A stretch of 64,000 bases of DNA, from assembly GCA_020152595.1 (NCBI GenBank), contig JAIGNY010001454.1, positions 1,338,001-1,402,000 on the forward strand. The letters run 5' to 3'. Source of the DNA: Chiridota heheva (taxonomy: Eukaryota > Echinodermata > Holothuroidea > Apodida > Chiridotidae). The notes beneath the pieces were generated by a model that was given only the letters and a program-made list of their open reading frames with translations, had not been told where the DNA came from and searched no databases. The number at the start of each line of letters is the position of its first letter. Position 1 is the stretch's first letter. Below are positions 406-33,620 of this stretch, one piece after another. The position numbers were made by a program, and so were the translations under genes.

Positions 406-503
406 CATTATGTAATCTTCCAAAAGATCGTACTCTGGAAACCCACCAAGCTTATGGAACACTTTTCGGTTCATAAACAAGGCCTGGTCACCATATGGCA
501 ATT
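406..503 (-). CDS. glycosyltransferase fusion, exon 9 (last visible)
   Basis: Residues 402-434: ELPYGDQALFMNRKVFHKLGGFPEYDLLEDYIM, of which LPYGDQ and the ED pair are hallmarks of TIGR04283-type GT2 enzymes. The acceptor is CATTTAG and the donor ATG|GTGAGT. The remaining C-terminal part must lie left of position 1. Confidence 0.87.
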
Positions 504-3500
504 CTAAATGAAGAAACAAAATATCTAAGTTCAAGAACTATGTTGTGCTGAAAAATTATAATGCAAAAATGATATAGATACAAAAGAAATTCATTATCAA
601 GATATAAAGGAAATATATAATGTAAGAACATGTAGCGTCAAAGCTTACACTATTATGATTGACCTCACAGACTTGTTGCATGACAAACAAAAGGACCATC
701 AGACATCAAAGTACCATTACATCATTTCCCACCGTCCAAGAGGTTTCTATTTTCGACAACAATTACACTTGGCTACTGGCACTTATTCTGAAAAGTAGAA
801 TACATATTTAAGAAAATGCGCTCTAAACATCTTGATCGGTTCAAATAAGTCTATAAGTACTGATGATGTCACTTACCAAATGTCTTTGCTCTGTAATTTG
901 TCCCTTTTTCTAATATTTTCATCTGGAATTCAAAAATCTTTTCAAAGACACCTTTTTGAGTAGTACTATGAGAAATAAGAAAAGGAATCAACTTTCAATC
1001 TTCAAGATAATGACCATTCCATATGTACAAACACCATTACATACTTTGCTGACAGAGATGCTTGATGAAAGTAAAGAACGATAACACAAAGGGACCAAGA
1101 ACAAACCTAGAAGTCATCAAAATGAAGAAAATGTACATAGTTACGAGACAAGCTACATGAAATGAATACATGTGTGAACAGTGGCAGTGTGGTAAGCTAT
1201 GGCTTTCCAATCTAGCGTCCCGACTTTGATTCCCGGTGGGTCTCCAACCAGTGCTCCACAACTGGTTAATAAAATGGCCGTGGGCATCTTGACATAAATA
1301 CTCCAATGGAGGTCTGTTGGGACGTTGTAAACCTTGGTAAACCAAACAGACTGACCATTTTATTTCATAACAGATAAGATGAAATTGATTTTCTGCTTAT
1401 TACCCTAATTAACAAGAAACAGCTTGATATGATCTAATATGACACATGGCTGTGATCTTAAATCTTTAGTGTCCTTTTTCTTTTGGATTCCAATGTATAA
1501 GTTTCGATGATTAACAATGAATCACACGTCTATTGCTAGGTTAGGTTTTAGTTTTAAAACTTTACCATTTTTAATTACTGTAAGTGCTTGGAAGTCAAAT
1601 TTCACTTTTGCTTCCCTATTCAATAATTGCTAATGATAAACATGACTTGCAGGTAAACTTTCTGGAAACTTTCCAATCCTTTGTGATTTACTTCAAGAGA
1701 GCAGTAAAGGCAGTGTAGCAACCACTAAAGACTGACATGATCAAACTCAATGGATGTGTTTGGTTCAATCTGTCCTACCACAGCTATTGTATCTATACAG
1801 ACCTGTGTATCCACAGTAAGAGTTCCAGCCCAAATGATCTCTAACTGTTCCGTTTCAACACTTTCTGTAATACTTTGCTGGAGTCTGCAAAATTGCATCC
1901 AAGAACAGTTATCCCCAAGGATGAAGCTACAAAGCTTTATTCGCTATCTGTTCGATTATTAGTTTTACTAATTCTGCAATATCACATATACAGATTGCTG
2001 AGAACATAGTGCTACATGTAGGTACTTTAAGCAGCAAATTTGATTTGTCCAGAAATGTTCTCTAATCATCTTGTCCTATTAAATACAATACACTGACGTT
2101 AAAAGTGTTTGGGTTTCTGGAAATCACAAAGTGATGATAACTGGTTGACCCCGAAACAAAAGTTATGATACTTTTTAAAACTGAATCAAATGAAATGAGT
2201 CGAGCAAACTTCACAGTAAAACAAATAGTGATTTACCGCCCTCAGATTCGAAAAAAATCACCTTAAGTATGGAACATTTCATTTAGAAGTACCCAAGGTA
2301 TGAAAAGGCTACCAGATGTATGAAAAGTCTACCAGATGTATGAAAAGTCTACCAGATGTATACAAATCGGCTAAAAGAGCGACACAGAGATCTGTTAAAG
2401 AAATAGACATGCAAAGCGTGATTATGGTGAAAACAATCAAACTGACCCAATATCAATATAAAACAATAAAACCATTCAAACTAAAATAAGAAAATAAAAT
2501 GACAAGATTCCCTCCGTAGCCCCTCATCAGGGTCACCTCTATTTTCTGATTCTGATACTAAAATCCTTTCACAAAACGATTCACCAACCTTCAATATTTA
2601 ATCTTTTCCAGCCAAGAATTTACATTACAAAATTTCTTGAGAAAATATTGCAGTGGACAATACAATTAAAACAATCACATGGCTCAATGGCAGTACAGTA
2701 AGCTCCAATCACATGGCTCAATGTCAGTACAGTAAGCTCCAATCACATGGCTTAATGTCAGTACAGTGAGCTCCAATCACATGGCTCAATGGCAGTACAG
2801 TAAGCTCCAATCACATGGCTCAATGACAGCACAGTAAGCTCCAATCACATGGCTTAATGGCAGTACAGTGAGCTCCAATCACATGGCTCAATGTTAGTAC
2901 AGTAAGCTCCAATCACATGGCTCAATGACAGTACAGTAAGCTTTAATCACATGGCTCAATGGCAGTACAGTAAGCTCCAATCACATGGCTCAATGTCAGT
3001 ACAGTAAGCTCCAAACACATGGCTCAATGGCAGTACAGTGAGCTCCAATCACATGGCTCAATGACAGTACAGTAAGCTCCAATCACATGGCTCAATGTCA
3101 GTACAGTAAGCTCCAATCACATGGCTCAATGACAGTACAGTAAGCTCCAATCACATGGCTCAATGACAGTACAGTAAGCTCCAATCACATGGCTCAATGT
3201 CAGTACAGTGAGCTCCAATCACATGGCTCAATGGCAGTACAGTAAGCTCCAATCACATGGCTCAATGTCAGTACAGTAAGCTCCAAACACATGGCTCAAT
3301 GGCAGTACAGTGAGCTCCAATCACATGGCTCAATGGCAGTACAGTAAGCTCCAATCACATGGCTCAATGGCAGTACAGTAAGCTCCAATCACATGGCTCA
3401 ATGTCAGTACAGTAAGCTCCAATCACATGGCTTAATGGCAGTACAGTGAGCTCCAATCACATGGCTCAATGTCAGTACAGTAAGCTCCAATCACATGGCT

Positions 3501-6500
3501 CAATGTCAGTACAGTGAGCTCCAATCACATGGCTCAATGTTAGTACAGTAAGCTCCAATCACAGGGCTCAATGTCAGTACAGTAAGCTCCAATCACATGG
3601 CTCAATGTCAGTGCAGTAAGCTCCAATCACATGGCTCAATGTCAGTACAGTGAGCTCCAATCACATGGCTCAATGTCAGTGCAGTAAGCTCCAATCACAT
3701 GGCTCAATGTCAGTACAGTGAGCTCCAATCACATGGCTCAATGACAGTACAGTAAGCTCCAATCACATGGCTCAATGACAGTACAGTAAGCTCCAATCAC
3801 ATGGCTCAATGTCAGTACAGTAAGCTCCAATCAAATGGCTGAATGGCAGTACAGTAAGCTCCAATCAAATGGCTCAATGGCAGTACAGTAAGCTCCAATC
3901 ACATGGCTCAATGGCAGTACAGTAAGCTCCAATCACATGGCTCAATGACAGCACAGTAAGCTGGCTTCACTGTGTAACAATCCATATTATGAGACATCTA
4001 AAATACCACAAAATCCAATTTTGATGCTCACAATATTCCCAACATAAGTATCTACATTTTTCTGGATGTTTCATTGTACAAACCTGTTTTGTTTTTCTTC
4101 TACGGAATCACTTTCATCACCCGAGTTATTCTCATGAAGTATGTCTAAACCAAACTGAAATGCCCCACAAATGACCCCTGGCTGGGTCAACGTGACCAGA
4201 ATATCCCTATCAAAAGCTGGAGGTAGCTTGGTGTCAGCATGAAGAAACAACAAGTGGAAGCCCTTGGCACTCTTGACTCCACAATTCATTTGTTTTGCTC
4301 TTCCTGTACAAAAGAAATCAATTTAAAATTGGCCCAATAAATTTCCAATTTTTCCATGTGTTATACAACTCCTCAAAAAGCACAATTTCATGAAATTATT
4401 GACAAACTATACAGAAAAAACTACATAACAGTCATGCAATAAAACTACAGGTATGCAACAACAGACATCTTTAATAAACCTGTCTGAATTACCAAATACA
4501 TTATTCAGCCTGGTCTGAATTACCAAACACATTATTCAGCCTCATCCGATTTACCAGATACATTATTCAGCCTGGTCTGAATTACCGAACACATTATTCA
4601 GCCTGGTCTAAATTACCGAACACATTATTTAGCCTGGTCTGAATTACCGAACACATTATTCAGCCTGGTCTGAATTACCAAATACATTATTCAGTCTATA
4701 CTGAATTACCGAACACATTATTCAGCCTGGTCTGAATTACCAAATACATTATTCAGCCTGGTCTGAATTACCAAATACATTATTCAGCCTGGTCTGAATT
4801 ACCTAACACATTATTCAGCTGTCAAGATTAAATATAGCTTTGAAATATCAATCCCCAACTTTTTAGATTTCCTAATAATCAAAGCAGCAAAAGAGCTCAA
4901 AAGAAAGCAAACCTTACAAGGCTTCCCTAGAACACTACAAGGAAGCAAACCTTACAAGGCTTCCCTAGAACACAACAAGGAAGCAAACCTTACAAGGCTT
5001 CCCTAGAACACAACAAGGAAGCAAACCTTACAAGGCTTCCCTAGAACACAACAAGGAAGCAAACCTTACAAGGCTTCCCTAGAACACTACAAGGAAGCAA
5101 ACCTTCCAAGGCTTCCGTAGAACACTATAAGGAAGCAAACCGTACAAGGCTTCTCTAGAACACAACAAAGAAGCAAACCTTACAAGGCTTCCCTAGAACA
5201 CAACAAGGAAGCAAACCTTACAAGGCTTCCCTAGAACACAACAAAGAAGCAAACCTTACAAGGCTTACCTAGAACACTACAAGGAAGCAAACCTTTTAAG
5301 GTTTTCCTGAACACAACAAGGAAGCAAACCTTACAATGCTTCCCTAGAACACAACAAGAAAGCAAACCTTACAAGGCTTCCCTAGAACACAACAAAGAAG
5401 CAAACCTTACAAGGCTTCCCTAGAACACAACAAAGAAGCAAACCTTACAAGGCTTCCCTAGAACACAACAAGGAAGCAAACCTTACAAGGCTTCCCTAGA
5501 ACACAACAAAGAAGCAAACCTTACAAGGCTTCCCTAGAACACAACAAAGAAGCAAACCTTACAAGGCTTACCTAGAACACTACAAGGAAGCAAACCTTTT
5601 AAGGTTTTCCTGAACACAACAAAGAAGCAAACCTTACTAGGCTTTCCTAGAACACTACAAGGAAGCAAACCTTACAAGGCTTCTCTAGAACACTACAAGG
5701 AAGCAAACCTTACAAGGCTTCCCTAGAACACAACAAAGAAGCAAACCTTACAAGGCTTCCCTAGAACACAACAAAGAAGCAAACCTTACAAGGCTTCCCT
5801 AGAACACAACAAAGAAGCAAACCTTACAAGGCTTCCCTAGAACACAACAAAGAAGCAAACCTTACAAGGCTTCCCTAGAACACTACAAGAAAGCAAACCT
5901 TACAAGGCTTCCCTAGAACACAACAAAGAAGCAAACCTTACAAGGCTTCCCTAGAACACTACAAGGAAGCAAACCTTACAAGGCTTCCGTAGAACACAAC
6001 AAAGAAGCAAACCTTACAAGGCTTCCCTAGAACACTACAAGGAAGCACACCTTACAAGGCTTCCCTAGAACACAACAAAGAAGCAAACCTTACAAGGCTT
6101 ACCTAGAACAATACAAGAAGGCAAACCTTTTAAGGTGTCCTGAACACAACAAGGAAGCAAACCTTACTAGGCTTCCCTAGAACACAACAAGGAAGCAAAC
6201 CTTACTAGGCTTCCCTAGAACACAACAAGGAAGCAAACCTTACAAGGCTTCCCTAGAACACTAAAAGGAAGCAAACCTTACAAGGTTTTCCTAGAACACA
6301 ACAAGGAAGCAAACCTTACAAGGCTTCTCTAGAACACAACAAGGAAGCAAACCTTACAAGGCTTCCCTAGAACACTATAAGGAAGCAAACCTTACAAGGT
6401 TTCCTAGAACATAACAAGAAAGCAAACCTTACAAGGCTTCCCTAAAACACTACAAGGAGGCAAACCTTACAAGGCTTCTCTAGAACACAACAAGGAAGCA

Positions 6501-9500
6501 AACCTTACAAGGTTTCCTAGAACATAACAAGGAAGCAAACCTTACAAGGCTTACCTAGAATACTACAAGGCTGGAAATTCCTAAAACACAGTTGAACTAC
6601 CAACTGTAAGCAGTTCATGGGAGCAATCAGAGCCAACCAAGCACTCTGGTGGATTTCATCATCACTACTTTACAAAATAAGAGTGATGATTTCATCATCA
6701 CTACTTTACAAAATAAGAGTGATGATTTCATCATCACTACTTTACAAAATAAGAGTGATGATTTCATCATCACTACTTTACAAAATAAGAGTGATGATTT
6801 CATCATCACTACTTTACAAAATAAGAGTGATGATTTCATCATCACTACTTTACAAAATAAGAGTGATGATTTCATCATCACTACTTTACAAAATAAGAGT
6901 GATGATTTCATCATCACTACTTTACAAAATAAGAGTGATGATTTCATCATCACTACTTTACAAAATAAGAGTGATGATTTCATCATCACTACTTTAAAAT
7001 AAGAGTGATGATTTCATCATCACTACTTTACTAAAATAAGAGTGATGATTTCATCATCACTCTTTTAAAATAAGAGTGATGATTTCATCATCACTACTTT
7101 ACAAAATAAGAGTGATGATTTCATCATCACTACTTTACAAAATAAGAGTGATGATTTCATCATCACTACTTTACAAAATAAGAGTGATGATTTCATCATC
7201 ACTACTTTACAAAATAAGAGTGATGATTTCATCATCACTACTTTACAAAATAAGAGTGATGATTTCATCATCACTACTTTACAAAATAAGAGTGATGATT
7301 TCATCATCACTACTTTACAAAATAAGAGTGATGATTTCATCATCACTACTTTACAAAATAAGAGTGATGATTTCATCATCACTACTTTACAAAATAAGAG
7401 TGATGATTTCATCATCACTACTTTACAAAATAAGAGTGATGATTTCATCATTTTGAGCACTGTACAAAATGGGCACACATACACATCTCCAGTTGCAGAG
7501 CAGGTGTTGATAAATATTGCAGTAGAAGTAGAAGGTAGTGGTCAGCAGTGGGGAAATTAGTGCCATGTAAGTAGGTCTAAATGCAGGGTCTCAGGGCAAA
7601 AATTTACATTTGAGGAGAATTTCTAAAAGTTGATCATTAAACTAATTATATTTCACTTTAACTTCACACATCTTTTTCAATAGAGTATATGGATTCATTT
7701 CAGGTGGGTCTGCAACCAGTGAGTTCACAACTGGTTATCAAAGGCCGTGGCCGTCTTAATATAATGTCCAGCACTGGATACTTTCGGGACGTTAAACCTT
7801 GCTATGCTATGCTATGCTATACCATGTCTGCAACTCCTTGCATGCTTACCCTTTGGTGTTTTGAGTAATTTTACAGGAATGTTTGTGCACTTCTTGGCAA
7901 ATTCTTCCACTAGGTTGGTTGTATTGTCTTTGCTGCCCCCATCGCACACCAAGATCTCAGCAAACTGAAAGTATCTACAATTCTGTGAAAAATGGGGCCT
8001 AATTGTGTTAGATGTTTAAATGATATTAGCAATCACATAAATATACATGAATAACCTAGCTACAATTATATTCCTGTATTTGCTTTTACTAAACATAAAA
8101 TTCCCAGTTCATACAACTTTAACAGTGATTTTTGTTTATACACATGCACATGGAACATTTCAAATTTCTGATAACCAAACATGTGAGTAACGTAAATTAA
8201 CTTATCACCAAGCTGATAGTGGAAGAACGCACTTGAAGTACTTCAAATATCAACCAAAAATATGCATGAAAGAAATGAATAATAAATCCTTTTTTTTCCA
8301 TTAAAACTTTCATAAAAAGTGCATGAGAAATGATTTGAATTCCATTTAAACTTACTTTGTGAATAGTTTGTAATGTTGAGATGATGTTAGCTTCCTCATT
8401 GTAGGTCGGTACGATGATGGACAAAGTTGGATTCTTCAACTCCTCCAAACTTATGCCAACGGTCTTATGAAACTCATGCAGATCTTTTGATTCATCCTGC
8501 AAAAAATGTTTTTATTTGCTGGAAAACATTTTAAAATGTAGAAGTTGATAAATATTAATTAAATTGATTAAAAATGAACAGAGCGTTTTTGAATCCTATA
8601 ATTACAGAATATCCTGCATTCATTTTATGTTTGCACTATCCAGATTATAAAAACAATGAAAAAAATGAAAAGAAATATGTTTTTACTTTGTAGTTTAATT
8701 TGCTTGGATATCTGCCCGCAACTTTCAATTTGTTAAATGTATGACTTTTTGAAAGTTTCTTACAAAAAATATGAAATACTATCTACTTCAAGAAATTTTT
8801 TGAAAGTACATTGTGGCTTTGATAACTATGAAATCTGCAAATACAAATCAATCAAAAAATATAATCACTTTTTTAGGTTAAGCTACACTGACATATGTTC
8901 TTTAGGTTAAGCTATACTGACATATGTTCTGTAGGTTGAGCTATACTCACATATGTTCTTTAGGTTGAGCTATACTGACATATGTTCTTTAGGTTGAGCT
9001 ATACTATCATATGTTCTGTAGGTTGAGCTATACTGACATATGTTCTGTAGGTTGAGCTATACTGACATATGTTCTGAAGGTTGAGCTATACTGACATATG
9101 TTCTGTAGGTTGGGCTATACTATCATATGTTCTGTAGGTTGAGCTATACTAATGTATGTTCTGTAGGTTGAGCTATACTGACATATGTTCTGTAGGTTGA
9201 GCTATACTGACAAATGTTCTTTAGGTTGAGCTATACTGACATATGTTCTGTAGGTTGAGCTATACTGACATATGTTCTTTAGATTGAGCTGTACTGACAT
9301 ATGCTCTGTAGGTTGGGCTATACTGACATATGTTCTGTAGGTTGAGCTATACTGACATATGTTCTGTAGGTTGAGCTATACTGACATATGTTCTGTAGGT
9401 TGAGCTATACTGACATATGTTCTTTAGGTTGAGCTATACTGACATATGTTCTTTAGGTTGAGCTATACTGACATATGTTCTTTAGGTTGAGCTATACTGA

Positions 9501-12500
9501 CATATGTTCTTTAGGTTGAGCTATACTATCATATCTTCTGTAGGTTGAGCTATACTAACATATGTTCTGTAGGTTGAGCTATACTGACATATGTTCTGTA
9601 GGTTGAGCTATACTGACATATGTTCTGTGGGTTGCATGAGCTATACTGACATATGTTCTTTAGGTTGAGCTATACTGACATATGTTCTGTAGGTTGAGCT
9701 ATACTGACATATGTTCATTAGGTTGAGCTATACTGAAATATGTTCTTGAATGAATTCTCAGACATTTATCTGTACATATAGTTGAGAAAACAAAGAATAC
9801 CAACCACATCAGTAAGGAGTTGAGGCAGTACATTTACTCTAAGCCCTGCCTCCTCTGCAACCTGGATTTGCTGCTTCAAGACTTTTTCTGTGCCCCAATC
9901 AATCTCTGAAAAAATTACACCTGGAATGTAAATAAGTTTATCAAGATTATTCTTAGGATTTGGTACACAGTTCCTAAGAAAGTCTGTACTTTTTAGATTT
10001 AGATTATACCCAAGTACCAGGTGACCGCTCCTTTTTAATCTTCACTTATCTTTGTTGAAAGACCTGGATCCCATCATTTCTAAGTTCTGGTTTCCTCCCT
10101 GAATACACTTTTAGTATTATTTTGTGTTCAGGTGTAAAAATGAATCATTTGAGGAAAGAATTATCTTTTGAGAGCATTTCAAAATTAGCCGAAGCTATAT
10201 TCACCAAGATGAGGCATACAAGTGGCTCAACAAATTTTCCATGGTTGACCATTTTTCTGATTTCAAAGCAAATCCAGAAGAGGGCAGTGAATCTACGTTC
10301 AAAGTATTGAATCACTCCAAATAATATTTTCTTCTTCTGTGATCTACATAACATAGATCCCCATACTTAAGTTATCTCTGGTACTTCTGTTCAATCCAAC
10401 AAGGTAGTATCCGCCATCAAATGCTGGGCCAAGCACCATGTCACATGACCCACTCTGCAGCTCCTTGAATGCTGCATCCAAAATGTCCTCTGTGATTCCT
10501 GGAATATCTGCACCAATCTTTGAAGAAAAGAGAAACAGAAAATATGTTTGATAAGTAAGTGTAAGGTATTATTATCTCATTTATATGAATATATCTATTT
10601 AAAAATGAAAATGACAAAATTCATCTTCTTTTGAAAGTGAATGGTTATTCATTAACAACCTTATGTTAGTCATTATCCCAGCAATGAATAATTTCAGATT
10701 AATTCATGGTCTCAGTACTTTAATCCACAGCTTCATCTATATGGCACAGCCTTCCCCGCAACCTTTGCTCAAAAATGAAAAATTTGAAGCTCTAATATTT
10801 GAAAAGATATTCAAAACCTATCTCCAAAACTTTATATTTCATCTTCCATCATGTTTCTGTTCAAACTGTTTTAACAAAAAAAACTTAATGGACTTCTATA
10901 CAAATTTTGCAATACTAAACTGGTCACATTTTGCACTTAGCACATGAATCCCCCACCCTCGTCAACAAAGACATATCTACAGTATAAGCTGCATTCCCTT
11001 CAGGTGGTTGCATCTGTTTGGTAGAAGAAAAAAAACTTTGTAAAGTAAGAATAGCTTTCTAACCAGAAGAACGTTGGTAATCTTTTGCTGGAATGATCTG
11101 ACAAACACATCAACAATCCTTTCTCCAAATTTAGCGTTCATCTGAGGATGCCAGGAAAAGTAAGGTGTTACGATCCTCCTGCTGTCTAACCAATACCGGA
11201 CCTCCTTCTGGCTGCCTCCTGAGTAGGCACACTCGATGGCCACTGATGGACTTCCAGAATTCAATACATATTCCTGAAGGATGTTTAAGATACTGTTTGT
11301 CTGTGAGTAGAGATGGAAAAAAAAATATACAAAAAATTCAATTTTCATCTAACATTAACAAATGTTATAAATGGTTTCAATATTCCAACTTGTTATATCA
11401 TTTGATAAACATCTAAAAACAGAAGCAATAACTTCATGTGGCATGCAGTATTTACCATACCCTCAATCTGGGATGGCTGAATACCCTTGACCCTTCATTT
11501 AAGTTTACCTTACTAACATATACAATAGCCCTCAGTCTGGGATCTGAATCTGAATCTGAATCCGTTAGGTCGGCAAAAATCCTTCAAGAGGACATGAACG
11601 CCAAACGAGCGTAAAAAGTATGAGTAAAAAGAATAAAATAATCAATAAATAAAAAAACTAGTTAGCAATACAAGTGTTAGTAAGTTTAGCGACTTGGTGC
11701 ATGTACAATGTCTGACGGTAAAGTATTCCAATCCTTTAGTGTGTGAGGGAAGAAAGAGTGTTTGTATACATTCTTTTTAGCATAGGGAACCTGGAAATTA
11801 AGGTCATGATTATTTCTTGTATTAGTTCTGACGGTGGGGATAAGTTCATCTTTATTGATGGCAACAAGATTGTTATTGATTTTATATAGCATATGTAGCC
11901 GGGTGTTGTATCTTCTTGCTTTTAGCAGGGGCCAATCTAATTTATGAAGCATGTTTTTTACACTAGATTTATAAGAGTAGTCTGCCATACAGAACCTGGC
12001 TACTCTCCTTTGAACAGATTCAAGTTTATCCACATCGCACTGGTGATGGGGGTCCCAGACTGCAGATGCATACTTAAGTACTGGCCTGACTAGAGCTTTA
12101 TAAGCAGTGGATTTAACGTCGGTGGGAGTTTGAGAGGTTACGTTTTAATAGGCCAAGTACAGTTAGCTTTCTTGGTTATGTTATGTATATGCTTATCCCA
12201 TCTAAGTTTAATATCAATTTCAACACCTAAGTATGGGCAATAGTTGACATGTTTTAGTGGCTGAGTACATGAGGTATAAACAGGTGATTTAAAGCATTTT
12301 TTAAAGAAAACTGACAAGATGTAGCATTCAGAGGGGTTGAAATTCATTTGCCATTTGTTTCGCCATTGTTCAAGTTTGTTAAGATCATCTTGAAGGATTT
12401 GTTGGTCAGAGGGTTATTAATTGTTCTGTACACAAGGCAGTCATCAGCAAACAGTCTAACTATGCTGTTTATATTATCAGGGATGTCATTTACATATAAA

Positions 12501-13622
12501 AGAAAACGTAATGGACCCAAAACAGTACCTTGTAGTACACCGGATAAAACCTGGCTGAATACCCTTAACCCTTCGTTTACCTTACCAACATATACAATAG
12601 TCCTCAGTCTGGGATGGCTGAATACCCTGACCCTTTACTCACCTATACTAGTCTAGTTAAAAGCATTGCTTGGAATTTTCATAGTAGGCCTATGGGTCAA
12701 TAATGAGGCTAAAATTAAAATTTTATGATACTCTCATTGTGAAATGATAAAACGATATCTGATTTGCATAAGTATGGCAGACTACTCTTATAAATCCAGT
12801 GTAAAAAACATGCTTCATAAATTAGATTGGCGTGCTGAAAATAAGAAGATTTGAATCTGAATCGGTTAAGTCGGCAAAAATCCTACAAGAGGACATGAAC
12901 GCCAACCGAAGATACAACACCCGACTACATATGCTATACAAAATCAACAACAATGTTGTCGTCATCAATAAAGATGAACTTATCCCCACCGTCAGAACTA
13001 ATACAAGAAATAATCATGACCTTAATTTCCAGGTTCCCTATGCTAAAAAGAATGTATATGACGCTCTTTCTTCCCTCACACACTAAAAGATTGGAATGCT
13101 TAACCGTCGGACATTGTACATGCACCAAGTCTCTACTGTTTCAAAGCTAAACTTACTAACACTTGTATTGCTGACTAGTTTTTTTTATTCAGTATTATCA
13201 TTTTTTTATTTTATTTTTTACTCATACTTTTTACGCTCGGTTGGCGTTCATGTCCTCTTGAAGGATTTTTGCCGACTTAATCGATTCCGATTCAGAAGTA
13301 ACTTGTCACATGCAGGTTTATTGAAATGAACAATGAAAAGGCACTAACAATTATGCAACAGAGATAAAAACTAGCATGCATGAGTACAATGAATATTCGG
13401 CATAGTTTATTCAATAAGTGTATTAGCCTATACCATGTGCAACTGAATATTTGCAGCACCAAACTCGCCCAACTCCTTGATCAATCTTGTTTTTGTCCGC
13501 CCAGGTTCAGGAAATCTTGAAAAAACTACAATTTTGTGTCTGTGAGAATACCATTTAGCTTTCAAAATTAACCATGCCGCTGATATGGTAAATAAACTTC
13601 CTAGACTTATCGCAAGGCTCAT
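406..13622 (-). CDS. DUF2064 - family 2 glycosyltransferase fusion protein, 9 exons visible, C-terminus beyond the window
   Basis: Seen: exons at 13434-13622, 11064-11300, 10367-10517, 9805-9905, 8356-8496, 7850-7964, 4080-4303, 877-922 and 406-503 join in frame through GT-AG junctions to 434 codons. Residues 1-30 hold a hydrophobic segment (SLAISLGSLFTISAAWLIL), probably a membrane anchor. Residues 31-230 resemble DUF2064 / rSAM-selenodomain transferase 1: FSRFPEPGRTKTRL, IGADIPG (143-149), GPAFDGGYYLVGL (172-184). Residues 250-434 resemble transferase 2, a GT2 fold: SIIVPTYNEEANI (252-264), CDGGSKD (280-286), GRAKQMN (312-318), LFLHADT (330-336), ELPYGDQALF (402-411), GGFPE and LLED (428-431). 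Known: bacterial members are usually separate adjacent genes, sometimes near arsenosugar or selenium loci. Inferred: a membrane-anchored sugar or nucleotide transferase; the substrate is unknown. The introns, filled with animal repeats, argue against bacterial contamination. The start ATG at 13622 has A at -3; an in-frame upstream ATG at 13787 is less likely. Confidence 0.88.
877..922 (-). CDS. glycosyltransferase fusion, 46-nt microexon 8
   Basis: It encodes MKILEKGTNYRAKTF plus one base, matching the family pattern RL.EWG.N.RS that precedes LPYGDQ. The acceptor is TTCCAG and the donor G|GTAAGT, both strong, and the phase fits exons 7 and 9. It was found only by family expectation plus splice sites. 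Confidence 0.75.
1165..1345 (+). mobile_element. tRNA-derived SINE copy (variant head)
   Basis: An A-box-like segment (TGGCAGTGTGGTAAGC) and a B-box-like segment (CTTTGATTCCCGG) precede a core ACCAGTGCTCCACAACTGG and AATGGCCGTGG, ending near GGGACGTTGTAAACC. The core is shared with copies at 7.7, 25.2 and 36.1 kb, but the tRNA-like head differs. Confidence 0.6.
2294..2360. repeat. three copies of a 20-bp unit
   Basis: GTATGAAAAGTCTACCAGAT occurs three times in tandem with one base variant (GGCT/GTCT), in intron 7-8 of the glycosyltransferase gene. Confidence 0.65.
2670..3962. repeat. 34-bp minisatellite, about 38 copies
   Basis: The unit is AATCACATGGCTCAATG plus (G/T/A)CAGTACAGTAAGCTCC. 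Copies differ mainly at two positions (GGC/GTC/GAC and GTAAG/GTGAG), and the variants are intermixed. The array lies in intron 7-8 of the glycosyltransferase gene. Confidence 0.95.
4080..4303 (-). CDS. glycosyltransferase fusion, exon 7
   Basis: Residues 312-386: GRAKQMNCG, LLFLHADTKLPP, ICGAFQFGLDI. An acidic insertion (NNSGDESDSVEEKQNR) interrupts the usual short GAFR..F segment. The donor used is GTACAA after NRF. The alternative donor GTTTGT four bases upstream would put an immediate stop in exon 8. Confidence 0.85.
4478..4818. repeat. 31-bp minisatellite, about 11 copies
   Basis: Unit ATTATTCAGCCTGGTCTGAA followed by TTACC(A/G)AACAC. It lies just upstream (minus-strand sense) of exon 7. 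Confidence 0.9.
4890..6572. repeat. 38-bp minisatellite, about 43 copies
   Basis: Unit AAGGAAGCAAACCTTACAAG plus GCTTCCCTAGAACACAAC. The unit contains a weak inverted pair (GGAAGC / GCTTCC), so single strands could fold. Same intron as the 31- and 36-bp arrays. Confidence 0.95.
6652..7454. repeat. 36-bp near-perfect palindromic minisatellite, about 22 copies
   Basis: Unit GATGATTTCATCATCACT plus ACTTTACAAAATAAGAGT. Each unit holds the inverted pair AGTGATGA / TCATCACT around TTTCA, a potential hairpin. Copies are almost identical except around 6990-7075. Because 36 is a multiple of 3, several frames stay open on both strands; these are not genes. Confidence 0.95.
7697..7840 (+). mobile_element. 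SINE 3' fragment
   Basis: It carries the core (CAACCAGTGAGTTCACAACTGG, TTATCAAAGGCCGTGG), then CAGCACTGGATACTTTCGGG and ACGTTAAACC, and a tail of TGCTA repeats. No tRNA-like head is visible. It sits next to exon 6, just past its splice donor. Confidence 0.6.
7850..7964 (-). CDS. glycosyltransferase fusion, exon 6
   Basis: Residues 274-311: AEILVCDGGSKDNTTNLVEEF, with the GT2 DGGSxD metal/nucleotide motif. The acceptor is CTTTCAG and the donor G|GTAAGC, phase 1; the leftover G starts the GRAKQMN motif in exon 7. Confidence 0.88.
8356..8496 (-). CDS. glycosyltransferase fusion, exon 5: interdomain linker and GT2 start
   Basis: Residues 227-273. It opens with DESKDLHEF, completing the DUF2064 end, then about 15 linker residues, then SIIVPTYNEEANIISTL, the nucleotide-binding N-terminus of GT2 enzymes. 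The acceptor is TTTGCAG and the donor AAA|GTAAG. This exon physically joins the two domains, so the fusion is not an artefact of joining neighbouring genes. Confidence 0.9.
8874..9748. repeat. 29-bp minisatellite, about 30 copies
   Basis: Unit TTGAGCTATACTGACATATG plus TTCTGTAGG, with frequent TTCTTTAGG variants. It fills the intron between exons 4 and 5 of the glycosyltransferase gene. Confidence 0.95.
9805..9905 (-). CDS. glycosyltransferase fusion, exon 4
   Basis: Residues 193-226: IDWGTEKVLKQQI, then AGLRVNVLPQLLTDV, the C-terminal DUF2064 helix and LP..xDV segment. The acceptor is TTTTCAG and the donor GTG|GTTGGT. The exon is 101 nt, and the phase closes correctly with exons 3 and 5. 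Confidence 0.83.
10367..10517 (-). CDS. glycosyltransferase fusion, exon 3
   Basis: Residues 143-192, beginning IGADIPGITEDILDAAF and containing GPAFDGGYYLVGL, the most diagnostic DUF2064 motif. The acceptor is TTCAAAG and the donor AA|GTATGG, phase 1. No open frame with an ATG covers it, so a single-frame search misses it. Confidence 0.85.
11064..11300 (-). CDS. glycosyltransferase fusion, exon 2
   Basis: Residues 64-142, the middle of the DUF2064 domain, including YWLDSRR and the FGERIVDVFVRSF helix expected before the IGxDxP strand. The acceptor is CTCACAG. The donor GTTAGA is weak but is the only position that joins LL to IGADIPG in frame (phase 0). Confidence 0.8.
11455..12645. repeat. 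about 62-bp tandem repeat split by a LINE insertion
   Basis: CTCAGTCTGGGATGGCTGAA followed by TACCCTTGACCCTTC and CTTACCAACATATACAATAG recurs on both sides of the CR1-like fragment at 11540-12550. This suggests the retroelement landed in a small tandem array in intron 1-2. Confidence 0.65.
11540..12550 (-). pseudogene. 5'-truncated CR1-like LINE fragment (reverse transcriptase C-terminus)
   Basis: The minus-strand reading holds YLGVEIDIKLRWDKHIHNIT, ESVQRRVARFCMADYSYKSS and LHKLDWPLLKARRYNTRLHM, nearly the same as the element at 28.6-29.5 kb. Frames are broken near 12040-12140. The 3' end (ATGTCCTCTTGAAGGATTTT, GCCGACCTAACGGATTCAG) matches the family terminus. It is a dead copy inside intron 1-2 of the host gene. 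Confidence 0.85.
12779..13300 (+). pseudogene. second CR1-like LINE fragment, opposite orientation, with internal inverted 3' end
   Basis: It contains the MLHKLDW start, RRYNTRLHMLYKINNN, VPYAKKN and the family 3' terminus at about 13228-13296. A short reverse-oriented piece of that same 3' terminus (about 12850-12905) is inserted between two copies of GAAGAT. It faces the fragment at 11540-12550. Confidence 0.75.
13434..13622 (-). CDS. glycosyltransferase fusion, exon 1 (coding part)
   Basis: It encodes residues 1-63: the start Met, a hydrophobic segment, then KIVVFSRFPEPGRTKTRLI, the N-terminal DUF2064 signature. It ends in phase 0 at ATG|GTATAG. The reading frame stays open upstream to 13787, but that part is unlike the family and is read here as 5' UTR. 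Confidence 0.85.
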
Positions 13623-13849: not shown

Positions 13850-14510
<661 letters not shown>

Positions 14511-14841
14511 GGGGTAGGGGCCATTTTTTTTTTTTATCGGGGCCCTGTTGAGCTGACAATGAATACATTTTTTATTTTTATTGAGTAGCTAGGGGCCCCT
14601 CTCGGTGAGGGGTGAGGGTCTGGAGTGTTCATGCGCCTAGCATCACAGCCAGTATTGTTAGGGCCGACTAGCTCACTTACTTAAGTGGGTGAAATTTGAA
14701 AAGCGAAAATTAGTATAGCCTGTGCCCGTCGTTCACGTAAGTCACTGAATTACCCTACATCCTCGTTGGTTCCCCTGGTAACTAGTACTCCAGCTGGTTA
14801 TAGGCTAATACGGCTCTGGCTAAAGGGAGGAAACCCCCGAA

Positions 14842-16720: not shown

Positions 16721-17080
16721 TCCCGGGGCGGAAGGGGGGGGGGACTTTATACTAAAAGTGGTAGGGGTGTGTGACCAACCGAAAAACATACCCACAGTAT
16801 GACAGATTTTTTGGTAACTGCAGTATGAAATTAACACAGTAAACACCGCATTTTTTAAGACCTGCACTACGAACATGATGGGAAAAAAAAGCCATTTTTC
16901 TTTTTTTTACTAAATTTATTTTTCTAGTGCAACGATAATAGTGCAAAAAAGGAACCTGCTTGGGCGGCACGTATACATATACCTCACATATGAAAGTGCT
17001 CCCACACCCCCGGGTTTGGGTAACCATTTCTAAACCAGTGAACAGATCATAATTTCCTTTGAAAGTTGAGACAATTCAGG

Positions 17081-19015
<1,935 letters not shown>

Positions 19016-26053: not shown

Positions 26054-26373
26054 TCAAATCACTCACTTGCAACTTATGTTTGTATCGATGGGCAATTACA
26101 TTCGTACAAATCAAGTTGGAAATTGTCAAAAATCAACTCATGCAAGAGAAAATTACTCCTTTTATTCCTTACCCTTTCTGGTGATATTGAAAGCAATCCT
26201 GGACCTTCCCCAAAATATCCTTGCAAACAATGCAACAAATCTGTCAAAAATAACCAGAAAGGTATTTGTTGTGATGATTGTGACTCGTGGGTTCATAGTA
26301 AGTGTGCAGGCATTAGTAATGCAGCTTACAATATTTGGAATCATCATCTGATGATTAGTTTTGTTCAGAATGT
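26054..26373 (+). pseudogene. retrotransposon ORF start: 2A-like motif and first PHD-like finger
   Basis: The frame is open from 26054. KLLLLFLTLSGDIESNPGP (26150-26206) matches the 2A consensus D-(V/I)-E-x-N-P-G-P, preceded by the usual Leu-rich stretch. The motif causes ribosomes to skip the Gly-Pro bond. The first finger follows (CKQCNKS, CCDDCDSWVHSKCAG) and is completed as CSEC in the next frame. No in-frame ATG lies between the TAG at 26051 and the motif, so the start codon is mutated or lies in another frame. Confidence 0.85.
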
Positions 26374-27447
26374 TTGGCACCTTGTGGCCTGTGTGGACTC
26401 CAGTGTAGGAGATCCGAAAAAGCAGTACAGTGTGACAATTGTGATCTATGGATCCACACTAAGTGCTGTAGCATTGACGACTCAAAATACAGCGATCTCA
26501 TGCATTCTAGCTGTACCTTGGTGTGTGACACTTGTGACTCCATAAACTTCTCTGATTCTTTTTTCTCAACTAACAATTCCATCAACTGTACTAACTCATA
26601 TGAGCCACTTCAAAATTGTTTTTCTGGCCTTGATTCGGGGTCCAACCACCATCCCGATGTCAAATTGAAAACAAATCCCAAAAGGGAAAAAAGGAAGGTT
26701 CTAAAACTTCTTGTTATCAACTTTCAGAGTGTTCGAAACACGACGGCCTCCGTGGAAAGTCTTATCAAAGAAAAAGACCCAGATGTCATTATTGGCACTG
26801 AAACCTGGCTTAATTCCGAAATTATCAGCGCTAAAATTTCCCCGGACAACTATACAGTCGTTCGCAAATATAGAAATTCAAATAGTTATGGTGGTGTATT
26901 ACAGGCAGTAATAAATGACCTGATTTTCACTGAGCTCACTAAATTAGACTCTGACTGTGAAATTATCTGGACCAAATATCAATTTCCTAAGGAAAAGACC
27001 ATGTATGTAGGAACATTTTACAGACCCACTAGCCTACTTGACTGGAAAAAATCCCTCCAAAAGCTTGGTAAAAATGCTGACAAAAACAATGTTATTCTTG
27101 CTAGTGATTTCAACCAACCTAACATTGACTGGAGTCAAAACATTATTTCAGGAACTAACGCTTCCTTCGGAGCAGCCCAAATTCTTCTTGAAGTGACCAA
27201 TTCATTCAATCTCACTCAAACGGTGCAATCCCCCACCAGAGATAACAACATCCTTTATCTTGTTTTTACTAACAATTCACCAGCTGTTACCTCAGCTAAT
27301 GTCATTCCCGGTATAAGTGACCATGGTATTGTTAAACTGACCTTAAATATCTCCCCTCCTCGTAAAAAATTGCCTACACGTAAAATCTATTTAAAGAAAA
27401 AAGCTCACCGTCATAAAACGAATAAACGAAGACCAGACCAAACTTAA
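26374..27447 (+). pseudogene. retrotransposon second PHD-like finger and APE endonuclease
   Basis: CGLCGLQCRRSEKAVQCDNC and DLWIHTKCCSI form a second Cys/His finger. A Lys-rich linker leads to the endonuclease: LLVINFQSVRNTT, DVIIGTETWLNSEI (active-site Glu), YVGTFYRPTS, ILASDFNQPNIDW (usually GDFN) and PGISDHGIVKL (active-site Asp-His). It ends by frameshift at about 27447. The family is CR1-like, Jockey superfamily. Confidence 0.88.
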
Positions 27448-29480
27448 ACTGCAATATTATACTCAATTCAATAACTCTATTGATGTTGATGAAAAATGGA
27501 ATTTCTTTGAACAGGAAATTAAGTTGATTATTGATAAAAATAGCCTCACAAATTCACCTTACCTAAACTAAATCTGCCCTGGTTCACCCGTATCCAACGC
27601 CGTCTCTGCAGGAAAAAACATAAACTGTTTAAAAAAGCTAAGACTAATCAATAAGTCAATGACTGGACGACCTATCTGCCTATACAAGCTTTAGGAAGGC
27701 TGTCCGTAAAAACCTCAAAGAAGCTAGAAACACCTTCATCTGTGATAAACTTAAAAACTCACTTAACGAAAACCCAAAGGCAATCTGGTCCTATATCAAA
27801 AGATTAAGAAGTAACTCTGTAGGTGTGTCTGATCTGCTAAATAATGGTAAACTCTGCAGTGACGGTAAAACTAAAGCTAACATCCTAAATGACCAGTTTT
27901 TCAGTGTTTTCACAGAAGAAAACACCTCCCAAATCCCTGTAACTAAACCACTCACCAAAAGCAAATTAAACCAACTTATAATTACCCCAGAGGGTGTCAG
28001 AAAGCAATTGCATAACTTAGACCCCAACAAAGCAGGTCCTGACCAAATACCACCATGGTTTCTAAAATCACACGCTGATGACCTCTATGAAATTCTAACT
28101 GATCTCTTTCAAACCTCTGTCGATAATGGTACTATCCCTAACAAGTGGAAAGAAGCAAACATATGTAGCGTTTTTAAAAAAAGGTGATAAACAAAACCCA
28201 GCTAATTATAGACCTATTTCCCTCACCTGCGTTTGTAGTAAAATCTTTGAGCATATAATCCACTCACATGTGATGAAATTCCCTGATGAGCATAATATCT
28301 TAATTGATTTACAACATGGCTTCCGTGCAAAAAGATGGACTGAAACACAAATCCTCTTAACAATAAATGATATCTCTGAACAAATTGACTAAAACAGTAA
28401 CGTCTCTATAGCTATTCTTGACTTCTCAAAAGCCTTTGATAAAGTCCCACACCAGCGCCTGTTATCCAAACTTTCCGCCTATGGCATTGATGGAAATCTC
28501 CTGGCCTGGTTTGCATCATTCCTCAACAACCGCATCCAGCGTGTTGTCTGTGATGGTGAAATCTCTGATTCTAAACAGGTTGTATCCGGTGTACCACAAG
28601 GTACTGTCTTGGGTCCATTACTTTTCCTTTTATATGTAAATGACATCCCTGATAACATAAACAGCACAATTAGACTGTTTGCTGATGACTGCCTTGTGTA
28701 CAGAACAATTGATAACCCCTCTGACCAACAAATCCTCCAAGATGATCTTAACAAACTTGAACAATGGCAAAACAAATGGCAAATGAATTTCAACCTCTCT
28801 AAATGCTACATCTTGTCAATTTCTTCTAAGAAATGCTTTAAATCACCTGCTTATACCTTATGCAACCAGCCACTAAAACATGTCAACTCCCACCCATACC
28901 TAGGTGTTGAAATTAATAATAAACTTAGATGGGATAAACATATACATAACATAACCGAGAAAGCTAACTCTGTACTTGGCCTATTAAAACGTAACCTCTC
29001 AAACTGTCCCACCGACGTTAAATCCACTGCTTATAAAGCTCTAGTCAGGCCAGTACTTGAGTACGCATCTGCAGTCTGGGACCCCCATCACCAGTGCGAT
29101 GTGGGTAAACTTGAATCTATTCAAAGGAGAGCAACCAGGTTCTGTATGGCAGACTACTCTTATAAATCTAGTGTAAAAAACATGCTTCATAAATTAGATT
29201 GGCCCCTGCTTAAAACAAGAAGATACAACACCCGGCTACATATGCTAGTGTATATAAAATCAATAACAATCTTGTCGCCATAAATAAAGACGAACTTATC
29301 CCCACCGTCAGTACTAGTACAAGAAATAATCATGACCTTAATTTCCAGGTTCCCTATGCTAAAAAGAATGTATATAGACACTCTTTCTTCCCTCACACAC
29401 TAAAGGATTGGAATGCTTTACCGTCAGACATTGTGCATGCACCAAGTCTCAACTGTTTCAAAGCTAAACTTACTAACACT
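27448..29480 (+). pseudogene. retrotransposon reverse transcriptase
   Basis: Broken into about four frames: KLRSNSVGVSDLL, LDPNKAGPDQIPPWFLK, NPANYRPISLTCVCSKIFEH, FSKAFDKVPHQRLLSKLSAY, SGVPQGTVLGPLLFLLYVND, RLFADDCLVY (catalytic Asp pair), HPYLGVEINNKLRWDKHI, VRPVLEYASAVWDPH and RRYNTRLHML. Domain order and motifs are those of CR1-like enzymes. The fragments at 11.5-13.3 kb are the same family. Confidence 0.9.
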
Positions 29481-31185: not shown

Positions 31186-33620
31186 TCATAATTTGAAATT
31201 CAACCGCCGCGCTGATGTTATGGCAAATCTGTCGATGACCGATTTCACGTCTGGGCAATGGGCCCTATGAATTTGTAATAGAATAAGTGCCTCCAGTCGG
31301 GCTTCCGTCATTGTTGACCGAATAGCTGTAAGGCTTCTTTCCATTTTTGAAAAGACTCTCTCGGCCTGTGCAGAAGTCACTGGCAAAGTTGCCAGCAACT
31401 GAAGCAACAGTGATATGTTATGAAACATTTCAGAGCAATGATCCAGGGCACAGACGGATGAAGGTGGTCGGGACTTGCCAGAAACATTTTCCCATTTCTT
31501 CCTCCATAACATGTATTCGCCCTTAACAATCATGAAAGGATCTCTGATCAAACTTGCATACACCTCAATAGCAGTAGTCAAATCATTCTACTGCCCCTCA
31601 CCGTCAGCTTGTTTGGCGAATTCCATACAATTTGGTACAAGGTAGTTAAGTTTCATATTCTGTTGTTGATGTGGACCAAATCTGTGCTTGAGGTCTCCAA
31701 TAATAGAGTCTATGGCTGGATACAAAAAGTTGACTCTGTAATAGCCTTCGGTGGTGTTGTCCGATGTTTGAGCATTTGGTCGGTATGAGCTTCTAGCTGC
31801 AATGCGTGGTTTTCGCAGTTCCACCTCCATCACATCTTGTGCGACTGATTCTGCCATTTGATACAGGTCATGGAAAACCCCTTCAGTTCGCAATTCTTTG
31901 AGAACAGACTAGATACGGTTTACTGAGGCTAACGCTTGGGATAAATCTCCCCCCCTCCCACTGTTTGTAAGACTCGGGAAACTGGTAGCATCAATCCTGA
32001 CAGTTTCTCCAAAATAACTGAAGCAACTGCAAATTCTGAGTTGCAAACCGATTTTTCAAGGCTTTCTGCTTTGTTTCTGTCACAAGGTAATGCCCAGCAT
32101 TTGATTTCCGATAAGGCATTCAGTGTATATTTCAAAAGTTGCATAAATGTTACAACTGCTGTGTGTCGTTCCAAAAAACGTGTTTTGCACAACGTAATCA
32201 GGTGCTTCTTGGTCATGGAAATACCAGAGTCACTTTCTATGAGGCTCTTCAACAAATCCGCTTTTTTTTGCACTTGCTCGAAAAGTCAATGAAATTTCTC
32301 GCACAACATATTCTGCATTTCGAATAGGAGGTACCTTGATTGCAGCGGAAGCACTCAAATTTAGGCAGTGCATGGCGCAACGAAAATAAAAGGCCAATGG
32401 AGCTGCCTTTTTCATTGTTGCTGAAGCACCAACCCATTCACTGGCCATGGTTCCTGCCCCATCATAGCCATGTCCCACAAAGAGACAGACCCAAACCGAG
32501 CCCACGAATCTTTCTTAGCGACGATTCTCCAGTAACTTTGCCACTCAACTTGATTTCATTATGCTCATTTTCACCATGATTATTAGATTTGATGTCAGAA
32601 ATCAAGTCCAATACCATTACCGTGTCCTCATGCAATCTCAAAACTCCAGAATCGCTTGGTATCTTATAACAATTGCCAGTTGTTGACTTTTTGGGCGATC
32701 CATTGTTTCATCAGCTACGATAGACCAGAACTGTACTTTTTTAATGTTAGCAACAACACTTTCCCTAATCATGTCACCAGCAACGCAATAGCTTCATTTT
32801 GAATCGAGGATGATAGGTAGGTTGCATTAGCATGGGAAGTTTTGATATGGTCCTTCAAAAGTGAATCCCCACTACGAAGTCAAAAACGAAGTAAAGCCTA
32901 AAATTTCCGTCATTTTCTGTTGGTTCATCTCCGCTGATAGAAATTGTCCCTAGTTCACCTCTGTGGCCTCTGAGGGGAATGTTTTGTCGAGAACAGGTGA
33001 GAATTGTATCAATAATTGGACGAAGGCAATCTCTGTTTTGCTGAATCTCCCGCTTAAAAGATTCGTTAATGTGTCCTCTAACAGTCTAATATCTGTTCCA
33101 TGTTGAATCACTGTTTGTCGAAAGTGTTCCATTGCAACTACGTTTTCTTGGTGGTATTCAGTGGCCTAATGACTTGATAAAGCTACGTTTTTACCTGTTA
33201 GATCATCAAATTGTGTAAGAAGTTTTGAAACCAATTTTCCTGGTAGCTGACCTTTTCCTCTACTTCTACCACCTACTCCACTACAACCTGAAAATAACAC
33301 ACGTGGTACACAAAACACTCCTTCCATCCCTTCAACTTTGCTTGTGCTCAACCATGGGAACTTCTCACAATGATGGGAAAGCAAACGCCTCTTGCGCATT
33401 TCTCCTGATTTCGTATGAGATAAAGAAGGAAATTCTTCTTCCCTTGATGGTTTCCATAGGGATAAAATTTTAGCTCGGTCTCCTTCATTTAAACTTTGTG
33501 AAAGTACAGCATAACCAATGTTATTGTCAGCTGCTTTTATAGAAACGGTAGCAGTATCAGTACTACATTGTTGGAGTGGTTGGTCTGATGTAATGCCAGC
33601 TTCAGTTTCACCAGGGGGAA
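31186..33620 (-). pseudogene. hAT-type transposase core (TTF-finger, THAP12/ZMYM1-like), decayed
   Basis: On the minus strand: ILSLWKPSREEEFPSLSHTK, KFPWLSTSKVEGMEGVFC (TTF-like finger), LPGKLVSKLLTQFDDL, GHGYDGAGTMASEWVG, FRCAMHCLNLSASAAI, LITLCKTRFLERHTAVVTF, and the C-terminal dimerisation segment VTSAQAERVFSKMERSLTAI then RLEALILLQIHRAHC. The frame is open from about 33617 to 33166, then broken by stops and frameshifts. Known: THAP12-like proteins join a THAP domain to such a hAT core. The right-arm THAP exon lies about 2.8 kb upstream on the same strand. Confidence 0.82.

Follow-up and report, generated by a model that had tools for sequence, protein, structure and literature searches.

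A fused gene for two transferase domains in the sea cucumber Chiridota heheva: probable bacterial descent and a possible part in an arsenosugar pathway

The locus and its fused transferase gene

The stretch analysed here, called the window throughout, comprises 64,000 nucleotides (nt) of the sea cucumber Chiridota heheva (assembly GCA_020152595.1, contig JAIGNY010001454.1), corresponding to C1450:1338001-1402000 in a genome of 1.10 Gb and 3744 contigs. Its minus strand carries one spliced gene for a protein in which a DUF2064/TIGR04282 domain is followed by a TIGR04283 glycosyltransferase of family GT2. The gene begins with an ATG at 13622, its last in-window exon ends at 406, and its predicted splicing gives 11 exons and 10 introns, with 9 exons (and 8 introns) inside the window and 2 exons past the left edge; all ten introns are GT-AG, with phases matching throughout. 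The flanking piece fetched for the last two exons overlaps the head of the window by 400 bases, which are identical. The nine in-window exons join to 458 residues and the complete protein has 520, the same length as its brittle-star relative P0009. The features of the gene are as follows.

Exon 1, 13434..13622, minus strand, 189 nt: start codon, N-terminal hydrophobic anchor and start of the DUF2064/TIGR04282 domain (FPEPGRTKTRL); donor CACATG/GTATAG
Anchor, 13563..13613, minus strand: hydrophobic residues 4-20, then a K/R-rich flank; mean Kyte-Doolittle hydropathy 1.91 over 17 residues
Exon 2, 11064..11300, minus strand, 237 nt: middle of the DUF2064 domain; CTCACAG/ACAAAC...CTTCTG/GTTAGA, phase 0
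Exon 3, 10367..10517, minus strand, 151 nt: motifs IGADIPG and GPAFDGGYY
Exon 4, 9805..9920, minus strand, 116 nt: DUF2064 motifs WGT and DVD (D230, D232)
Exon 5, 8356..8496, minus strand, 141 nt: end of the DUF2064 domain (DESKDLHEFHK), linker and start of the GT2/TIGR04283 domain (NPTLSIIVPTYNEE)
Exon 6, 7850..7982, minus strand, 133 nt: GT2 NCRYFQ... and DGGSKD; acceptor TTTTTCACAG/AATTGT
Exon 7, 4084..4303, minus strand, 220 nt: GT2 LFLHADT and GAFQF
Exon 8, 877..965, minus strand, 89 nt: STTQKGVFEKIFEFQMKILEKGTNYRAKTFE; the phase, 2 to 1, fits exactly
Exon 9, 406..503, minus strand, 98 nt: LPYGDQ and ED motifs; donor ATAATG/GTGAGT; the gene runs on past the window start
Exon 10, C1450:1333921-1333826, outside the window, same genome
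Exon 11, C1450:1331868-1331776, outside the window, same genome

Two of these exons deserve comment. Exon 8 was found only by a profile of 101 relatives, with a score of 10.9, the highest on the window's minus strand (the next is 7.6). Exon 6 is taken to start at 7982, 18 bases earlier than the start at 7964 that it replaces, since with that start alone NCRYFQ lines up with the NCSFPTFLEIVV of the relatives. An earlier note on this DNA, made from its letters alone, had joined 434 residues; with exon 8 recovered and exon 6 corrected this figure gives way to the 458 above. Its count of at least eight animal-type introns agrees with the 8 in the window and the 10 overall, and exon 5 does carry, as it had said, both the end of one domain and the start of the other; the fusion joint sits within this exon and is not marked by an intron.

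Domain assignment and catalytic residues

The earlier note had read both transferase domains into one protein with their key motifs intact, and on both points the family searches agree with it. TIGR04282 (glyco_like_cofC) matches residues 31-237 over its whole length (profile positions 1-189 of 189) with 162.7 bits, against an NCBI cut-off of 134; TIGR04283 (glyco_like_mftF) matches the full 520 residues with 202.9 bits, against a cut-off of 182, which the incomplete first join (139.9 bits) and, slightly, the sponge relative P0036 (177.2 bits) fall short of. The corresponding Pfam families are found at E=1.8e-25 (PF09837) and E=1.4e-18 (PF00535), and exon 3 is the one match to PF09837 in the whole genome at E <= 0.001.

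The second half belongs to GT2 by PF00535 and by its GT-A fold with D, DxD-like and ED motifs, whose residues are kept as D292, H344-A-D346 and E454-D455. In the first half the aspartates D146, D230 and D232 are kept, and the same three occur in all ungapped rows of an alignment of 123 proteins. They align, at weak scores (E 0.5; second piece -3.7 bits), with positions 130, 202 and 204 of the 6bwg chain, which with a single offset of 14 are D116, D188 and D190 of PMC6450877; a first alignment of this domain to CofC chains had given partial matches only. The DUF2064 domain is thus probably nucleotidyltransferase-like, built as CofC/FbiD with three metal-binding aspartates. It is not a member of CofC/FbiD itself (2-phospholactate, phosphoenolpyruvate or 3-phosphoglycerate guanylyltransferase), the TIGR03552 score being 27.9 bits against a cut-off of 105, and no common substrate is known. 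The putative nucleotide-diphospho-sugar transferase of Desulfovibrio, 3cgx, differs in being without a GT2 half; its title assigns no function.

An identity as DPM1 was considered and rejected: the dolichol-phosphate mannose synthase 5mlz scores 24.3 bits with the first join and 59.5 with the profile, below other GT2 enzymes, and both specific family cut-offs are passed. Two Branchiostoma lanceolatum proteins (P0010, P0020) are deposited as DPM1; this name looks wrong, since related animal copies pass both specific cut-offs.

The N-terminal anchor described in the earlier note is present, and a clear hydrophobic N-terminus (threshold 1.5) occurs in 26 of 34 animal rows, all 26 with net positive charge between the N-terminus and the enzyme. 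Rather than the N-terminal anchor of the animals, the protist-like proteins P0256, P0261 and P0275 possess a hydrophobic C terminus. These two routes to the membrane suggest an acceptor that resides there.

Distribution and ancestry

Two protein searches were made, of which the best 120 of 4675 and the best 120 of 1629 matches were listed. The best relative has E=1.4e-110 over 98% of the query. Among the matches listed in the first search, the best 30 rows are 27 named animals and 3 metagenome proteins (P0003, P0005, P0021), followed lower down mainly by bacterial fused proteins of about 450 residues and a few more animals. The animals listed comprise sea cucumber, urchins, brittle star, starfish, crinoids, acorn worms and amphioxus, and further bivalves, gastropods, a chiton, Lingula, two nemerteans, Owenia, Priapulus and the sponge Sycon; the EukProt rows P0261 and P0275 are listed as well, and P0256 and P0254 group with them in the tree. 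Vertebrates, insects and nematodes are not named among the matches listed (120 rows per search), which by itself does not prove absence. With nine animal groups listed besides the EukProt rows, and inheritance much like that of the animals themselves, the gene is not the curiosity of one animal for which it could be taken at first.

The relationships were followed in a tree of 123 hand-chosen rows: 34 from animals (the window protein included), 6 unassigned, 3 protist-like, 18 further bacterial proteins and 62 bacterial loci. It leaves out other listed rows, several animals among these, and the protist label of P0261, P0275 and P0256 is based on their position next to the animal rows. Animal, protist-like and unassigned rows, 43 in all, come together in a single group with support 100, both in this tree and in separate trees of either domain; in a more careful 57-row tree, 25 such rows do so with 100/100 (bootstrap not fully settled). 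The branch that keeps P0261, P0275 and P0256 outside the animals has support 89 in the larger tree and does not resolve in the smaller. The nearest relative among the rows compared is the holothurian Apostichopus japonicus (54-55% identity), to which the window protein is sister with 97 in the larger tree and 100/97 in the smaller, and the two are nested within echinoderms plus hemichordates (99/99). The 123-row tree recovers an echinoderm-hemichordate group (99) and a protostome group (97), as expected under vertical descent; Priapulus and the sponge are unplaced in the 57-row tree. Bacterial contamination or an assembly artefact, for which we found no point in favour, is rejected by the ten introns and the position beside Apostichopus, and the 1.7-Mb contig with its transposon remains speaks against it as well; we give it practically no credence.

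Bacterial fused TIGR04282-TIGR04283 proteins (from Desulfobacterota, Planctomycetota, Verrucomicrobiota, Kiritimatiellota, cyanobacteria and others) share the domains, their order and the catalytic residues, and are, among the rows listed, 35-40% identical over 93-99% of the query; the animal form is distinguished by its introns, usually by the N-terminal membrane anchor, and by a longer segment ahead of the PYGDQ motif. Of 80 bacterial loci fetched, 62 hold both domains in one open reading frame, domain 1 before domain 2 in each, in a sample that leans towards fusions, the query having been the fused alignment. In this sample the two halves are not usually separate genes, as the earlier note had held them to be in bacteria. 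Nor is its fusion on the way to animals what the trees favour: after re-rooting, the sister rows of domain 1 are seven fused deltaproteobacterial or Desulfobacterota-type proteins (support 86) and that of domain 2 is a fused cyanobacterial protein (81). Bacterial affinity, which it had proposed, is clear from these sisters and from the identities above; an old eukaryotic lineage lacking such affinity, which it had named as contrary evidence, is found as to the age of the lineage and not as to the lack of affinity.

These relationships are most simply read as those of an old animal gene of bacterial descent, acquired already fused. The trees are unrooted, and the source is taken to be bacterial because the fused gene is far more diverse in bacteria and because the unfused forms are bacterial. 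Acquisition of two genes, or of an unfused adjacent pair, with fusion in an early eukaryote would agree with the existence of unfused bacterial versions (18 of the 80 loci, 16 of these cyanobacteria by record title) and with the different, weakly supported sister groups of the two domains; since the same fusion in the same order occurs in many bacterial phyla, and since the closest bacterial rows are fused in both domain trees, we consider it very improbable. Only slightly more credible is vertical inheritance from the root of eukaryotes, or via an organelle, with very wide loss. It would account for a single group made of a sponge, bilaterians and some eukaryotes that seem to lie outside the animals; against it stand the far wider diversity of the fused gene in bacteria and the small number of other eukaryotes among the matches listed (2 EukProt rows and 2 rows grouping with them, absence elsewhere not being shown).

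Gene neighbourhoods of the bacterial fused proteins

Neighbours at the bacterial loci were tallied at thresholds of 1e-30 for ArsS, 1e-60 for ArsM and 1e-100 for MerA, weaker matches being dropped; as reading frames were called crudely (the longest from its first start), the tallies are approximate. Of the 62 fused loci, 20 have ArsS within 10 kb, at distances from 2 nt to 8.4 kb; 12 have ArsM, 7 an AhpD-like TIGR04169 protein, and 23 any of the three; among the unfused loci ArsS occurs in 1 of 18. NCBIfam models applied to single representatives confirm ArsS (443.5 bits, over the cut-off) and identify TIGR04169, and give the ArsM relative 187.6 bits with NF008823, under the cut-off of 263. 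Bacterial fused forms thus sometimes adjoin arsS or arsM, which the animal gene does not. Other recurrent neighbours are a MerA-like reductase, TVP38, DUF547 and an APH-like kinase; the last is found near eight fused loci (L019, L038, L052, L055, L056, L059, L065, L080), six of them from Bacillota, and its representative, from L065, has no NCBIfam match at 1e-10.

A distinct ArsM-like protein of 384-404 residues stands near ArsS in five loci (L004, L006, L011, L035, L050). Longer bacterial versions of the fused protein also occur, with 666-799 residues (P0034, P0071, P0255 and others; loci L013, L022, L030, L035, L049); in P0034, P0071 and P0255 the extra N-terminal part resembles another GT2 domain, which would make a triple-transferase protein.

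In seven of the 21 ArsS rows from bacteria a TGA (GFT-TGA-GGA and similar) ends the reading where other rows have the cysteine of SSC, with the frame continuing, as expected of selenocysteine forms; the ArsS family, TIGR04167, is tabulated among prokaryotic selenoproteins in a 2026 review (PMC13188914). Such neighbours would explain the label 'selenodomain-associated', which is also found in database source names.

An ArsS gene in the same genome

A search of the Chiridota genome with the TIGR04167 profile gave six ordered minus-strand matches on a contig of 999,670 bases (C2229), from 340307 down to 293783, which together cover profile positions 2-302 of 303. They belong to the following predicted gene.

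ArsS gene (loci L090-L095), C2229:293774-343539, minus strand: spliced, seven exons, 378 residues

The exons with profile matches join through GT-AG introns of matching phase to 319 codons ending in a stop; the first exon (343539-343365), which is without a profile match, fits in phase and supplies a predicted ATG. The joined 319 residues score 423.8 bits with TIGR04167 (cut-off 300), 181.3 with PF12345 and 32.9 with PF04055, and keep the CxxxCxxC motif of radical S-adenosylmethionine (SAM) enzymes (CNQACNHC) and a cysteine-rich C terminus, CFGCTAGMGSSC. TIGR04167 matches weakly in all 14 control genomes and passes the cut-off in 1 of them, and no single stretch of the animal genome passes it alone; the gene is nonetheless judged genuine because six ordered matches join into a protein over the cut-off, which stray short matches do not. 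By its sequence, the animal thus holds a spliced and intact ArsS gene, whose product shares 53% identity with the closest of the bacterial rows sampled. It is of the cysteine form, GSSCQG being encoded where selenocysteine might stand; the view that a radical-SAM selenoprotein has been reported from metazoans finds no support in PMC3473315, in whose accessible part the word 'radical' occurs 0 times.

A proposed arsenosugar pathway

The earlier note had offered an arsenosugar as one possible product. With ArsS in the same genome this guess becomes a testable pathway, and the ArsS genes beside 20 of the 62 bacterial fused loci lend it further support. With moderate confidence, we propose that the fused protein is a membrane-tethered bifunctional enzyme of this pathway, encoded by an old animal gene of bacterial descent.

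We infer all chemical steps of the animal pathway, as follows. An ArsM/AS3MT enzyme would methylate arsenite to dimethylarsenic, as is established in other organisms; the animal's own ArsS, if it acts as bacterial ArsS does, would join a 5'-deoxyadenosyl group to dimethylarsenic, making the arsenic-carbon bond; and removal of the adenine would yield 1-phosphorylated dimethylarsinoyl-ribose. The DUF2064 domain, to judge from its fold and residues, could then activate the sugar phosphate with a nucleoside triphosphate, and the GT2 domain could move the arsenoribose onto an acceptor. An anchor whose positive flank faces the enzyme would keep that enzyme on the cytosolic side of a membrane. The acceptor is the least certain step: our guess is a lipid such as phosphatidylglycerol, proposed because algal arsenosugar phospholipids carry that head group, and the product would then be an arsenosugar phospholipid.

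Several observations weigh against this proposal. In the literature searched no demonstrated reaction was found for TIGR04282 or TIGR04283, whose names appear to rest on gene neighbourhood. At the threshold used, 42 of the 62 fused loci (many on short contigs) are without ArsS, including L001, L003 and L005, which are among those most similar to the animal protein; ArsS is likewise unseen in 7 of the 8 loci with an APH-like kinase, so that another product is possible. In the animal, ArsS and the fused gene are unlinked, on different contigs, and ArsS is shown in this one animal genome only: among the best 120 of 2642 matches no row is named as animal, in a list mostly bacterial or without organism names that excludes nothing. 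The ArsS tree, whose sampling follows a planctomycete query, contains three long branches (those of the animal row, at 1.52, of L004 and of L061) and does not resolve a donor. For the methylation step, NF008823 (ArsM) finds 5 matches in the animal genome, all intron-less methyltransferase frames of 33-38 bits against a cut-off of 263, and a bacterial ArsM-like query (the L006 copy) finds none, in a search without a positive control. Finally, 8 of the 34 animal rows, some perhaps incomplete gene models, are without a clear anchor, which weakens the lipid-acceptor step.

Part of this evidence would fit an enzyme of the same history that makes another glycoconjugate, such as a selenosugar, a polyprenyl-phosphate sugar or a lipid, the arsenosugar name being inherited from bacterial neighbours. 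The lack of a demonstrated substrate, the 42 loci without ArsS in the DNA examined, the recurrent MerA-like reductase, TVP38, DUF547 and APH-like kinase, and the extra N-terminal part of some bacterial versions can all be read in this way; an ArsS gene well over its equivalog cut-off in the same animal genome speaks against it, as do the 23 of 62 fused loci with ArsS, ArsM or the AhpD-like gene, and we hold such a product to be less likely than an arsenosugar, if deserving of attention.

If the enzyme does act on arsenosugars, the consequences reach beyond this animal. Algae and microbes are usually regarded as the source of the arsenic sugars and arsenobetaine in seafood. Rather than relying only on algal uptake, marine animals from sponges to amphioxus may have kept a bacterial arsenosugar pathway since early animal evolution, making arsenosugars or arsenosugar lipids, possibly at membranes and possibly as a source of arsenobetaine; we put this forward tentatively. 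Should ArsS and its glycosyltransferase be both present and in use in animals, part of this chemistry would be their own, and its origin would become a question for gene knockouts in sea urchins, amphioxus or oysters. The pathway would further open a way to the reaction of TIGR04282 and TIGR04283, families seemingly named by context alone, and present a case of an old bacterial gene retained across much of animal evolution.

Other elements in the window

Three coiled-coil-like frames lie upstream of the fused gene on the minus strand (42866-43207, 51920-52252, 61820-62203). The first matches NEMO CC2-LZ with 22.1 bits, under the Pfam cut-off of 35.3, and a NEMO/ABIN/optineurin-like gene may be located here.

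Mobile elements are represented on both strands. Remains of a non-LTR (long terminal repeat) retrotransposon at 26359-29283, plus strand, comprise an endonuclease (PF14529), a reverse transcriptase (PF00078) and a PHD-like finger below its cut-off, and similar-looking fragments lie within intron 1 of the fused gene, at about 11686-13150. Remains of a hAT-type transposase at 31186-32285, minus strand, include PF05699 at 31186-31587 and a frame at 31929-32285 without a Pfam match.

Large tandem-repeat arrays, recognisable by their periodic open reading frames, occupy 2684-3966, 4478-4830, 4930-6530, 6627-7456, 14044-14517, 17047-17883 and 46489-48585; several of them fill introns 6 and 7 of the fused gene.

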